Source: Nitrospinota bacterium
Lineage (GTDB): Bacteria; Nitrospinota; Nitrospinia; JACRGO01
DNA: 34,166 nucleotides
Assembly (NCBI GenBank): GCA_016212295.1
Contig: JACRGO010000228.1
Span: 1 to 34,166, forward strand
Direction: 5' to 3'
The notes under the pieces were generated by a model that searched no databases, was not told the DNA's origin, and saw only the letters and a list, made by a program, of their open reading frames with translations. Position 1 is the first letter of the stretch. Every line of letters starts with the position of its first letter. Made by a program: the position numbers and the translations under genes. Positions 1,451 to 27,853 of the stretch are shown here, in pieces.

Positions 1451-2417
1451 AGCGATCAATGAGCACGATTCCTTTGTCCTTGCCACCCATTTTAATCCGG
1501 ATGGGGACGGGGCCGGGTCGCTCGTTGCCCTGTCCGCCTTCCTGAAAGGCATTGGGAAAAAGGTGCATGCCTATTACACCGGCCACCTCATCTCCACCTA
1601 CAACTTCCTTAATACGGACGGGGACATCGAACAATACGAAGAGGCGGAAGACCCGGACTCGAGAATAGCCGGGGCCGAGGTCATTATGCTTCTGGACGCC
1701 AACGAATGGAGCCGCACGGAAAAAATGGAGCGGCCACTTAAGGAGAGCCGGGCCCTGAAGCTGGTAATCGACCACCACCCCATTGAGGAGAGCGTTTTTG
1801 ACTCCACTTGGGTCGATGTGGCGGCGGCATCGGTAGGGGAGCTTATCCACAAGTTGATAAAGGAGATGGGGGGCGGGATCACCGAGAAGATCGGGATAGC
1901 CTTGTACGTCACCATCCTCACTGACACCGGATCATTCCGGTTTTCCAACACAACGGCCAACACCCACCGCATCGCGGCGGACCTGATCGACGCCGGAGTT
2001 AAAACAAGCCACCTGTACCAGGCCGTTTATGAGCGGAACCCGGTGGAAAAGGTACGCCTGTTGGGGCATTGCCTGGCCAATATCCACATGGACTGCAACG
2101 ACCTCATGGCCTGGATTTCAGTGTCACAGGAGACCTTGAAAAAGTATAACGGCGCGCTTTGGATGCTGGACGGCGTGGTGGAGGTGGTCCGGACCATCAC
2201 CGAAGTGGAGACCACTGTTTTGATCGCGGAGAGGGAGGACGGGAAAATCAAGGTGAGTTTCAGGTCCAGGGACAAGCTGGATGTGAACGCCCTGGCCCGT
2301 TCAATGGGCGGCGGGGGCCATCCGAGGGCCGCGGGCTGCAAGCTTGATATGAGCTTAAAGGACGCGGAGGAACTCGTGGTGCGCAAGGTGGAAGAGGCCC
2401 TGGCCGCCTGTAAATAA
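1431..2417 (+). CDS. nrnA: DHH/DHHA1 phosphoesterase, NrnA-type oligoribonuclease / pAp phosphatase
   Basis: THFNPDGDGAGS, LLDANEWSR, VIDHHP, DTGSFRFSNT and C-terminal GGGGHPRAAGCKL motifs. Overlaps the upstream gene by 20 nt. Confidence 0.88.
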   Translation: MLKEIIKAINEHDSFVLATHFNPDGDGAGSLVALSAFLKGIGKKVHAYYTGHLISTYNFLNTDGDIEQYEEAEDPDSRIAGAEVIMLLDANEWSRTEKMERPLKESRALKLVIDHHPIEESVFDSTWVDVAAASVGELIHKLIKEMGGGITEKIGIALYVTILTDTGSFRFSNTTANTHRIAADLIDAGVKTSHLYQAVYERNPVEKVRLLGHCLANIHMDCNDLMAWISVSQETLKKYNGALWMLDGVVEVVRTITEVETTVLIAEREDGKIKVSFRSRDKLDVNALARSMGGGGHPRAAGCKLDMSLKDAEELVVRKVEEALAACK

Positions 2418-2499
2418 GTTAACAGCCAAGGATATCCTTATGATCCTTGCCAGCCAAAAGCGCGGCCTGCTTGTCATGCGCCTGAGTGCCAGTGTGGAG

Positions 2500-2513
2500 C
2501 GACTTGTTAGGAC
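2500..2513 (-). other. attC-like 5' core (R''-type; minus strand GTCCTAACAAGTCG)
   Basis: Minus strand after the brnA stop: TAA GTGCGGTCCTAACAAGTCGCTCC, which fits the (R)YYYAAC core that follows a cassette gene. No matching 3' half found. Confidence 0.45.
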
Positions 2514-2518
2514 CGCAC

Positions 2519-2794
2519 TTACAATGACTCTCTCAGAATATCGGCCATACGGGTTTGCCAGCCTGGACCGGTAGCCTTCCAGCGCGCCAAAGTGTCCGGA
2601 GGCAGCCGAAGGCTGATTGCGATTTTTGAATCCGAAGACTTCGCCCGGCCGCGCGGCTTGAGCATGGCGGCCGCTGTGCGGGCGCCAAATATCTCAGGTA
2701 AAACTTTTTTAGCCGGACGAGCCTTCGCAATCATCGCCGCTGTCCACTCCGGATTTACGCGGACTGTCTTTTTAGGTTTGGATTGCTTTTTCAT
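2519..2794 (-). CDS. brnA: BrnA-family antitoxin
   Basis: 91 aa; C-terminal ISLRLPPDTLARWKATGPGWQTRMADILRESL is the typical BrnA ribbon-helix-helix signature. Overlaps the upstream toxin ORF by 23 nt. Confidence 0.85.
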   Translation of the reverse strand: MKKQSKPKKTVRVNPEWTAAMIAKARPAKKVLPEIFGARTAAAMLKPRGRAKSSDSKIAISLRLPPDTLARWKATGPGWQTRMADILRESL

Positions 2795-3041
2795 ACCGAT
2801 TCACCTCGCGTTTATTTGCTTTACGCAGACTGATCACTCTGGGCTTACCGTTGCGTGGTGTAAATACCACGCTATGCAGCCGATCCTCAATGAAGCCGAG
2901 CACACAGTAACGCTGTTCTCCGTAATTTTTGCGCGTGTCTTCCCAGATCAAAGCCGTCGTCCAGTCAAGTTGCTCGGCGATATCTAATGAAAGACCACGC
3001 TCCGCGATATTTCGGCTCTCTTTCTTGGGATCTTTGTCCAC
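2772..3041 (-). CDS. brnT: BrnT-family toxin (ribonuclease), GTG start
   Basis: 89 aa; N-P/AERGLS..., RYCVLGFIEDRLHSVVFTPRNGKPRVISLRKANKREVNRYEK matches the BrnT layout. Directly upstream of a BrnA-like ORF. Confidence 0.85.
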   Translation of the reverse strand: MDKDPKKESRNIAERGLSLDIAEQLDWTTALIWEDTRKNYGEQRYCVLGFIEDRLHSVVFTPRNGKPRVISLRKANKREVNRYEKAIQT

Positions 3042-3197
3042 CTGATTATTGTATATATGTATATACGCAAAAACAACCTATTTTCAATCGCGATGCTCCG
3101 ATTGCGGCGTCGGCCAGAACGTTGTGTTGTGCCGCAGGCCTCGACGGCGGGAGACCGAAATGCGTTGCGTTCGCGGCCCGTTGGCATCAACACACTG

Positions 3198-4124
3198 CTA
3201 GCCGGCGTTCTCACAGGCTTGCTCGACCTTTGAAAAGACGTATTCGTCCCCATGTTCGATCGCCACGTACTCGTCATCCGCTTTAAGGAAGCCAACGGGC
3301 ACCGGATTATTCCTTGCTAAAGGATTGTGAACGGCGACACTGCGCTCCTGATTACCCACAACGGAACTGCCATCCAGTTCAACGGCCCAAATGGCACTTA
3401 CGGCAGCAAAGTGGGGATCAAGGAACATACTTGTGGGAACCAATGCTTTGTTGGGCTTTTCAATGTGAAAACGAACTTGGTGTCCTCGCGCCACTACCTT
3501 GAGCGTCTCTCTGTTGATATGTAGTTGATAGGGGCCAATCGGAAATACCGCTTCCGCCGCGAAAGGAAACTGGCTGATCCCGAGTAGAGCTGAAAAGGGT
3601 CCGTGGCGTAAGCGACACCCATTCACTGCGATTACGTAGGCGTCAGCGGGCGCAACGACTCCTTTACTAAGATATCCCGCGATTTGACCGTCAGAGCTGC
3701 CGAGGAGCTTCTCGGCCTTCTCCTTTACGGCACTCGTCCAGCGCAAGAGGATGGCCTGGTGAGGGAAATCGCCCACCGTGCCGGGTTGAATATTAAGCCA
3801 GGCATCCGGCAATCCAACAGGTTCTGGACAAATCGATTCGATCCAAACCTTCCGGTCTCCATTCAACACGAGAAGGTCGGGGCCATGTCCGGGCTTAGAC
3901 CGAGTTGGGAATGTCTTGTCCTTTAGGCGCTCCGCTAGCAGAGCTTCCGATACGCAGGACCAAAACTTGGAGTCTGAGCCAGAAACGAGCTCGTCGGTGA
4001 ACTTCGGGTCCGCCAAGCCGGAATCTACGAATGTTTGGCACGAGCCCGCTAACTTGGCCGCATACAACTCCTGGCGACCCGATATCGGGTAGCGTTGGTG
4101 AATATGCACCGCGATTCGTGTCAT
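3198..4124 (-). CDS. Uncharacterised protein (308 aa)
   Basis: Long ORF with ATG 6 nt downstream of a GTTAGGC core motif; antisense ORFs are shorter. No family recognised. GPDLLVLNGDRKVWIES weakly resembles a PD-(D/E)xK arrangement but the Lys is absent. Confidence 0.65.
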   Translation of the reverse strand: MTRIAVHIHQRYPISGRQELYAAKLAGSCQTFVDSGLADPKFTDELVSGSDSKFWSCVSEALLAERLKDKTFPTRSKPGHGPDLLVLNGDRKVWIESICPEPVGLPDAWLNIQPGTVGDFPHQAILLRWTSAVKEKAEKLLGSSDGQIAGYLSKGVVAPADAYVIAVNGCRLRHGPFSALLGISQFPFAAEAVFPIGPYQLHINRETLKVVARGHQVRFHIEKPNKALVPTSMFLDPHFAAVSAIWAVELDGSSVVGNQERSVAVHNPLARNNPVPVGFLKADDEYVAIEHGDEYVFSKVEQACENAG

Positions 4125-4128
4125 ACGA

Positions 4129-4140
4129 CGCCTAACAAGT
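4129..4140 (-). other. attC/attI-like 3' core (minus strand ACTTGTTAGGCG)
   Basis: Minus strand ACTTGTTAGGCGTCGT-ATG: a GTTRRRY core immediately upstream of the start codon, as at an integron cassette boundary. Confidence 0.5.
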
Positions 4141-4162
4141 TATCAGGTAAAAGGTCTGCTGA

Positions 4163-4327
4163 AAAATAGCACAGAGTTAAATTACTTGAGAGTGCCGAGT
4201 TCTCAATAATTATTTTCATAACTCATTGATTTTATTGAAATTTTTAAATATTTAACAAAATATAGGAAAATCAATAAAATCAATGAGTTACAGAGAACTC
4301 GGCACTCTCAAGTTAAATTATTGTCAA
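4163..4327 (-). promoter_or_regulatory. Putative sigma70 promoter split by the MITE-like element
   Basis: Minus strand -35 TTGACA at 4327-4322 and -10 TATTTT at 4168-4163. The interval is 153 nt now and exactly 17 nt after removing the 128-bp element plus one 8-bp duplication. Confidence 0.5.
4177..4320. mobile_element. MITE-like palindromic element (4185-4312, 128 bp) with 8-bp target-site duplications
   Basis: Perfect 20-bp terminal inverted repeats CTTGAGAGTGCCGAGTTCTC (4185-4204) / GAGAACTCGGCACTCTCAAG (4293-4312). Second perfect 20-bp inverted pair TAACTCATTGATTTTATTGA (4219-4238) / TCAATAAAATCAATGAGTTA (4271-4290). Direct TTAAATTA at 4177-4184 and 4313-4320 abuts both ends. No ORF inside. 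Confidence 0.82.
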
Positions 4328-4373
4328 TAAAAAAATGGCTTGACTTACTTGACGAATTTTATGGCCCTTTGCC

Positions 4374-4410
4374 AGGGACTAATATTCAGAATTGGATGTT
4401 AGTCCCTTTT
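4374..4410 (+). terminator. Hairpin followed by TTTT
   Basis: AGGGACTAA (4374-4382) / TTAGTCCCT (4399-4407), 16-nt loop, followed by TTT. Could serve other roles. Confidence 0.3.
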
Positions 4411-4424
4411 GGGGTTAGCAGCCT

Positions 4425-4496
4425 ATGCAAACGATTCCAGCCGGTATTTTGGAACAATATTCCGCCGTCCTAAAAACTGGCGATTCATTATATCGC
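4425..4496 (+). pseudogene. Possible N-terminal remnant of an integron-type tyrosine recombinase
   Basis: MQTIPAGILEQYSAVLKTGDSLYR follows the MQxIPxxILxQ(F/Y)xxxL pattern I associate with integron integrase N-termini. The frame then runs antisense into the ABC-F gene. Confidence 0.25.
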
Positions 4497-26068: not shown

Positions 26069-27853
26069 ATGGGACCTAAAAATTCCGTCTCAATCTTCAG
26101 TCCAAACGCCGGGACCAGATTAGCGATTTCCTGGATTTTCAAGAACAATTCCTACGATGTGAATGCCGCGAATGCATGCCAGCCGGACGAAATTCAGGCC
26201 GCGCTCATGGAGGAGTTCAAAAAACATATCTCCCAAAAAAAATCCTCCGATGAACAGGGTCTGGTGGTCCTAAATTGCCGTAACATCTTTGAATACGAAA
26301 AAGTGTTGCGGGAATTAACCAGGAAAATCATGGCCCGGAGGATTCAGTGGGCCATGGACAGCCTCATCTTCGGGCGGGAAGACCTGAACCATTTTTTCGA
26401 CTCTTTCATCATCACTCATTTTATCACGGGCGCGGACCTCATTTACCAAATTGAACGCGACCAAAAAATCCACGCGAGCCACGGAGACATCTACACCCAG
26501 GAATTTCTTGACTGCGTCAATCTGTTTTGCGAGGTGGGTATATCCCTCTCCATTTATTTTGAAAAGAGCCTGGAGCCGTCAGGGGACGATATACGGCAGT
26601 ACAATCAAGCCTTGCAGGCCGGAAAGCTGGAGGCGGCCAAACTGGCGGGCAGGGGAAATGTCACAAGGGAGGAACTATCGGAAGCCATTAACAAGCATAT
26701 CCAGTACTGCAAGCTGGCGGACAAGTCGGCCCAGATGACGGAACGCTTCATGGGCGACCTCATGACGTTTCTCAAGGACCGGGACACCTGGAACAGGATT
26801 TCCCAGAAAAGGACCGGCGTCATTGAGTCAGTGGACGTCTATAACCAGTACCTGGAGCTGAAAGTCAAGGCCATGAAGCTGAAGGAAAAAAGGGAGTTCA
26901 AGGAGATGGAAAAGGTGTTAAAGCAAAGCCTTGAACTTCTTGAAGGCTCCGGCGATGCTGGAAAACGGCCCCTGTTTGACACGTACATAGAGCTGTCCAA
27001 GGCCCAGATTTACCGGAAAAAATACGTCTCGGCCCAAAAGCACGCCACCGCAGCGAAAAAGATCCGGACCGAGGCCCCAAGTCCCCATCGCCTTATGGGA
27101 GACTGCCAGTTGGGCCTGGCAACCCAGGCGTTGAAGAGCGGCCAGTACCGGGACGCGGAAAACTTTTTTCATGGGGCGTTGAAGCACCTGATAAAGAGCC
27201 AGAAACTGGCGGAAGGCGTGGAAATGGAAGAAGCCACGGAAAACGAGATCGAAACCGCCGCGTCCATTTCTTACTTCGGCGACTGGATGCGGTGGGAGGC
27301 GAAAAAAAATCCTAAGGCGGCGGAACTTTTAAAGGAAAGCGTTAATTTTCAATCCATAGTGAAAATGGGCGAGAATTTCACGGTAAAGCATAAGATCGCG
27401 GTTGAGGCCAAGATCAGCCATACCGCTTCCCAGGCCGAGGCGGATGAAAAACTGGAAAAAGCCAGGAATTTCGCCATGAAGGCCGCGGAGTTGATCCTGC
27501 AAAAGAAATCCGAACCGGCCAAGACAATGTACGCGAGCGCCATAAAATTCGATGAAGTCACCGCCTTCATGACCATCAGCCACCAGGCCAAGAAATTCAG
27601 CGCGCAGGGAGAAGCGGCCAAGGCCCTGGACCTTTATTCATGGCTGGCGGAGGTGGACCAGAACGAGGCGGACATGCAATACATCAATGTCGCTAAATGC
27701 CACCTGCACCTGGGAGACAAAAACCAGGCGCTTAAGTATGTGAATGACGCCTTGAGTCTGAATAAAGACGTTATCCAGGAGGCGCAGGAGCTTGACCCGG
27801 ACTTCGGGCGCTCCGAGATCATGAAGCTGTATCTTGAGAATTGCAAAAAGTAG
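26069..27853 (+). CDS. TPR-rich protein of unknown function (594 aa)
   Basis: Helical TPR-like repeats (AKALDLYSWLAEVDQNEADMQYINVAKCHLHLGDKNQALKYVNDALSLNKD); N-terminal about 80 aa not TPR-like. Confidence 0.75.
   Translation: MGPKNSVSIFSPNAGTRLAISWIFKNNSYDVNAANACQPDEIQAALMEEFKKHISQKKSSDEQGLVVLNCRNIFEYEKVLRELTRKIMARRIQWAMDSLIFGREDLNHFFDSFIITHFITGADLIYQIERDQKIHASHGDIYTQEFLDCVNLFCEVGISLSIYFEKSLEPSGDDIRQYNQALQAGKLEAAKLAGRGNVTREELSEAINKHIQYCKLADKSAQMTERFMGDLMTFLKDRDTWNRISQKRTGVIESVDVYNQYLELKVKAMKLKEKREFKEMEKVLKQSLELLEGSGDAGKRPLFDTYIELSKAQIYRKKYVSAQKHATAAKKIRTEAPSPHRLMGDCQLGLATQALKSGQYRDAENFFHGALKHLIKSQKLAEGVEMEEATENEIETAASISYFGDWMRWEAKKNPKAAELLKESVNFQSIVKMGENFTVKHKIAVEAKISHTASQAEADEKLEKARNFAMKAAELILQKKSEPAKTMYASAIKFDEVTAFMTISHQAKKFSAQGEAAKALDLYSWLAEVDQNEADMQYINVAKCHLHLGDKNQALKYVNDALSLNKDVIQEAQELDPDFGRSEIMKLYLENCKK

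Follow-up and report, generated by a model that had tools for sequence, protein, structure and literature searches.

Expression of integron cassettes is usually attributed to sequence variants of the cassette promoter (Pc) and to cassette order. Chromosomal (sedentary) integron platforms have divergent integrase (intI) and cassette promoters, with attI directly downstream of Pc and cassette-type genes transcribed away from intI. The PcS promoter of class 1 integrons has the form TTGACA-17-TAAACT (tabulated in PMC8876359), and the provision of cassette promoters by mobile elements has been reviewed (PMC8876359). Short TIR elements that affect the expression of neighbouring genes or are associated with integrons include regulatory MITEs (Correia elements, MITEAba12) and the integron-flanking MITEs of Acinetobacter class 1 integrons (reviewed in PMC10969869); these supply promoters or lie outside integrons as mobilisation ends.

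The locus described here, from an uncultured Nitrospinota lineage, lies in a window of 34,166 nucleotides (the whole stretch of DNA that was analysed). It shares with chromosomal integrons the divergent promoters, the place of attI, and cassette-type genes (a toxin-antitoxin (TA) pair and an unknown gene) directed away from intI, but differs in its truncated integrase, in that no canonical attC was found, and in having a MITE inside the Pc spacer, a location for which a small literature search found no report. Without the MITE, its Pc would have the TTGACA and 17-nt spacer of the class 1 Pc, whereas its -10 (TATTTT with TGn), its integrase clade and its chromosomal, environmental setting are different. 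The reading favoured here, to which a probability of about 0.83 is given, is that of a relic integron whose Pc was split by insertion of a MITE, with Pc transcription lost or lowered. The features of the locus are:

2519 to 2794, minus strand: BrnA antitoxin gene (PF14384, E 1.1e-19)
2772 to 3041, minus strand: BrnT toxin gene (PF04365, E 1.3e-21)
3198 to 4124, minus strand: first gene in cassette position, 308 aa, no Pfam or NCBIfam match
4130 to 4136, minus strand: GTTAGGC core-site box, the first bases of the cassette, overlapping the end of the attI core
4134 to 4143, minus strand: predicted attI core ATAACTTG^TT at the cassette junction, matching AATAACTGG^TT of contig C182 of the same genome and of relatives
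4163 to 4168, minus strand: predicted Pc -10 hexamer TATTTT, aligned with TACCGT (three relative sites) or TGCCGT (one); TATTAT at this position on C182
4169 to 4171, minus strand: extended -10 element TGC; TGCT is invariant in the alignment, TGG on C182
4177 to 4184: TSD copy 1, TTAAATTA, 8 bp
4185 to 4312: MITE of 128 bp, AT 73%, a near-complete hairpin by RNA fold, with perfect 20-bp TIRs
4185 to 4204, plus strand: left TIR, CTTGAGAGTGCCGAGTTCTC, perfect over 20 bp
4229 to 4258, minus strand: weak promoter-like pair TTGTTA-N18-TAAAAT inside the MITE, facing the cassettes
4293 to 4312, minus strand: right TIR, same sequence as the left, perfect over 20 bp
4313 to 4320: TSD copy 2, TTAAATTA, 8 bp
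4322 to 4327, minus strand: TTGACA, the predicted Pc -35 hexamer, left upstream of the MITE; ATTGAC is invariant in five homologous leaders, TTGACC on C182
4340 to 4345, plus strand: TTGACT, a -35 remnant from the divergent promoter of intI
4375 to 4406: conserved palindrome GGGACTAATATT..ATGTTAGTCCC separating intI from Pc, its arms kept in five leaders
4425 to 4475, plus strand: truncated 5′ end of intI, MQTIPAGILEQYSAVLK, 17 codons, aligning with MQLIPADIWEQYSAVLK of genome G008 and VQKVPYDIWSQYDAFLK of the intact C182 gene

A MITE with the termini of a widespread transposase family

An earlier note on this DNA had called the element MITE-like, and the perfect TIRs, the 8-bp TSD and a TIR held in common with transposase-bearing elements bear this out: by its sequence the element is a true MITE. 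It is well under about 600 bp, contains no transposase gene and no ORF of at least 80 aa, and its predicted RNA fold has an energy of -63.3 kcal/mol (z -13.9). A search tolerating as many as 3 TIR mismatches found a single copy in its own genome, and one partial relative is present in G001. The TIR core was found in at least 119 stretches of public genome contigs from many phyla, often near contig ends, as expected of repeats.

Elements of 1.9-2.4 kb with a DDE transposase between the TIRs of the MITE (CTTGAGAGTRSCGAGTTCT) are present in four of the matched loci (L029, L135, L038 and L074), and the full-length transposase elements in L029 and L135 have 8-bp TSDs. Across the family, TSDs of 6-8 bp directly abut a TIR that begins exactly at CTTGAG, confirming the borders and TSD of the window element. 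The family transposase is IS701_3-like (E 1.7e-38) and has a DUF6788 ORF alongside; against NCBIfam NF049999 (IS701) it scored 132.6 bits where the curated cut-off is 170, making it related to, but by this model not a member of, that family. The window copy shares TIR and TSD length with this IS701/IS4-related family, differing from it as a 128-bp non-autonomous derivative. Neither the window's own genome nor 77 genomes of its class yielded a relative of the transposase, and the element is therefore probably stranded in its host.

The transposon family itself (L021-L139) is very widespread, is weakly covered by current family models, and includes numerous MITE derivatives, about 135-460 bp long. 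Separately, the interior arm TAACTCATTGATTTTATTGA of the window MITE (4219-4290) is similar to a subterminal motif in a repeat of the same genome, high in copy number and probably IS1380-like, that is found at about 20 contig ends (e.g. C3:70-89, C50:75-94); the resemblance covers 20-33 nt of AT-rich DNA.

The insertion separates the hexamers of a predicted promoter

On the minus strand, TTGACA (4327-4322) and TATTTT (4168-4163) are 153 nt apart, and removal of the 128-bp element with one copy of TTAAATTA leaves a spacer of 17 nt (153 - 128 - 8); these values, as given in the earlier note, were exact when the sequence was reread and the distances recomputed. That description listed TATTTT only. 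The three bases immediately 5′ of it, which are the last three spacer bases of the restored promoter, read TGC, making the -10 an extended one. Neither stranded half-site has found a new partner at its junction (best hybrid score 3.5).

Promoter scores were calculated with approximate E. coli sigma-70 weights. The restored site scores 13.3 and is the best by far on that strand of the 265-nt empty site, where the runner-up scores 6.5. Calibration was done on 1.03 Mb of the genome to which the window belongs, taking 402 upstream regions, each 120 nt long, of genes defined by a simple ORF rule. In these regions the right-strand and wrong-strand counts are 9 and 1 for TTGACA-N16-18-TANNNT, 59 and 27 for TATAAT, and 11 and 4 for TGnTATTTT, whereas TATTTT alone shows no enrichment (113 vs 109). 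Separation by score is weaker, with 13 regions reaching at least 13.34 on the right strand and 6 on the wrong strand. The enrichment of sigma-70-like promoters upstream of genes in this genome makes the restored site plausible; calling the promoter near-consensus was nonetheless an overstatement as regards the -10, which departs from background only in its extended form. Statistics alone leave the promoter reading open, and comparison with homologous sites that lack the element decides the matter better.

Homologous leaders without the MITE

A joined-flank search of the class found the right flank of the insertion (4323-4406, extending further), with 75-81% identity, in G011, in G008 and twice in G015, genomes of another family of the same class, in all cases without the MITE. 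At the four sites (G011 C136, G008 C52, G015 C163 and G015 C175) TTGAC(C/T) lies 18 nt from the -10 position, and three of the four (G011, G008 and G015 C163) read TTGAC(C/T)-N18-TGCTACCGT on the cassette strand; at G015 C175 the -10 position has decayed to TGCTGCCGT. All four carry the intI promoter TTGACG-N18-TATACT on the opposite strand. In G008, the leader has an integron integrase (TIGR02249, 372.8 bits) on one side and cassette-type genes on the other. The first of these (L281, C52 3821-4969) encode a ThsB-like TIR protein (Thoeris-type, PF08937), which is preceded by a hairpin ending GTTGGGC, and an unknown protein of 145 aa, possibly a defence cassette. At both G015 sites the homology does not extend past the intI start, and no integrase was observed.

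The closest counterpart is in the window's own genome, where C182 carries an intact integron integrase of the same clade, 77% identical to that of G008. Its intI promoter reads TTGACG-N17-TAGAAT, and its Pc, TTGACC-N17-TGGTATTAT (26615-26643), is followed by attI AATAACTGG^TT (26657-26667). The restored window promoter, TTGACA-N17-TATTTT with TGC at the end of the spacer, has the same layout, including the 17-nt spacer; the relatives have 18 nt. This genome has three integron integrases of full length, from at least two clades (C146, C3 and C182), besides a broken one (C50), and attC-like hairpins are present on C3, C182 and C199.

By this homology (conserved TTGAC..TGnTAnnnT), the split pair is a predicted Pc. 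Since the leader adjoins an integron integrase in G008 and on C182, the claim that it lies where an integron cassette promoter belongs was right, and the element-free leaders likewise support the view that TTGACA, the 17-nt spacer and the -10 were suggestive of a promoter. The proposed check on element-free relatives was borne out in that leaders without the MITE have the TTGAC pair near a -10, but with N18 spacers, at other loci, and with one -10 decayed. No orthologous empty allele of the window's locus was found, the comparisons being with homologous leaders at other loci. In G001, which is of the same genus, the ABC-F and DHH neighbours are on separate contigs and neither the locus nor its cassette region was found, so G001 was set aside as a source of the empty site; L280 (G008 C54), where TTTGACA stands beside tRNA-like sequence, was rejected as a leader.

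The window contains only a 17-codon 5′ stump of an integrase gene. None of 2000 shuffles reached the score of its alignment with G008; matches of the stump to L289 and L290 were dismissed as an ABC-permease coincidence. No good -10 remains for the window's intI promoter. The predicted recombination site, ATAACTTG^TT, stands at the junction in a position homologous to that in C182 and relatives, and its pattern ATAACT[GT]GTT is rare, with just 3 occurrences on the two strands of about 1 Mb of the genome; the window's attI region is about 15 nt longer than in relatives. These comparisons support identification of the DNA outside the element, which adjoins an ABC-F gene, as the intI-attI leader of a chromosomal integron, and leader homology, intI stump and attI core together mark the locus as a relic integron whose Pc spacer holds the MITE.

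The palindrome, which is strongly conserved, follows closely on the -10 of the intI promoter in the window and in L276, L275, L277 and L279, and C182 has a related, diverged form, CTAATATT..AATATTAG (26531-26554). It is a candidate operator or 5′UTR hairpin controlling the integrase of this clade.

Genes in cassette position

The 308-aa protein has relatives on plasmids that are 23-45% identical, one of them aligned from residue 1. They are found on rhizobial, Acinetobacter and Providencia plasmids, in one case beside a PrlF/YhaV toxin-antitoxin pair, with no evident cassette arrays around them. The protein was not found in viral contigs, nor the window's cassette DNA on plasmids.

A search of 2400-3200 for a standard attC by simple R-box criteria found no R″/R′ pair better than in shuffles, and attC assignment by R-box complementarity was rejected. 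The attC-left-half pattern CTAACAAGTCGCTC was also abandoned, its hits in the window's own genome being no more numerous than those of the control. By eye, an attC-like left half follows BrnA. Inverted copies of ACTTGTTAGG bound the 308-aa/BrnTA unit at 2502-2511 and 4130-4139, an arrangement that would follow if the array were closed by the left half of an attC. With no canonical attC found, the term cassettes rests on adjacency to attI, on the type of gene and on the attC-like left half after BrnA.

Proposed history and alternative explanations

The comparisons establish the insertion, the duplication, the homology to intact integron leaders, and the predicted positions of Pc and attI. In the proposed history, the leader of a chromosomal integron, with its divergent intI and cassette promoters, palindrome and attI, would have survived beside the ABC-F gene while the integrase gene was cut to about 17 codons, the 308-aa gene and BrnTA pair occupying the cassette position. 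A MITE with ends related to the IS701/IS4-like transposase family inserted into the Pc spacer, duplicating TTAAATTA and taking the -35/-10 distance from 17 to 153 nt. We infer that Pc was functional before the insertion, which would have abolished or strongly lowered its transcription of the 308-aa gene and BrnTA. Residual expression may come from the extended -10 (TGCTATTTT), from the weak promoter-like pair of the MITE, or from read-through, of which the ABC-F gene is a possible source.

The alternative that survives best, though still tentative, is that expression was rewired rather than silenced, the cassettes still being transcribed from the MITE-internal TTGTTA-N18-TAAAAT or from the surviving extended -10. 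The internal pair scores 11.1, the best in the present sequence, and upstream regions reach scores of at least 11 on the right strand 3 times as often as on the wrong one (12.4% vs 4.2% of regions in the same genome); the extended -10 belongs to the enriched TGnTATTTT class. Sigma-70-like promoters are known from MITEs (Correia, MITEAba12; PMC10969869), and cassettes can receive promoters from mobile elements (PMC8876359). However, a 9-of-12 match is common in such A+T-rich DNA, with 1.4 sites expected in the region, and a single-copy MITE offers no check of its promoter by conservation.

Somewhat less likely is that the leader was dead before the MITE arrived, intI having been truncated first, so that Pc had no selective value and the insertion is neutral debris. 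The reduction of intI to 17 codons, the missing -10 of its promoter, and the end of homology before any integrase at both G015 sites are in keeping with this. Yet the window Pc (TTGACA, TATTTT, 17 nt) is nearer consensus than the hexamers of the relatives, and the perfect TSD and TIRs give the insertion a recent look, with Pc still intact at that time; the question is one of selection rather than structure. That TTGACA and TATTTT merely flank an AT-rich insertion site and were never a promoter is very improbable and largely refuted: dinucleotide shuffles left it room (an equal or better site in 1.1%, P about 0.01; any 10-of-12 site in 6.6%), and other insertions of the family often have AT-rich flanks (0.45-0.76), two such sites scoring 10.6 and 11.2, but the homologous leaders, including the intact integron of the same genome, place the promoter identically beside intI and attI.

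If the split-Pc reading holds, a mobile element has divided Pc itself in an uncultured Nitrospinota lineage, with an effect that is directly testable through homologous leaders that are unsplit, including one from the same genome. It is unlikely, on present evidence, that the MITE acts as a heritable switch on the cassette promoter, its insertion isolating captured genes from Pc and its precise loss with one TSD copy restoring the promoter; were this true, integron arrays would have an off/on or strength-change mechanism distinct from cassette shuffling, with attI and genes untouched. A leader with a conserved divergent intI-Pc promoter pair can outlast its integrase, and relic integrons can therefore be identified from leader homology even without intI.
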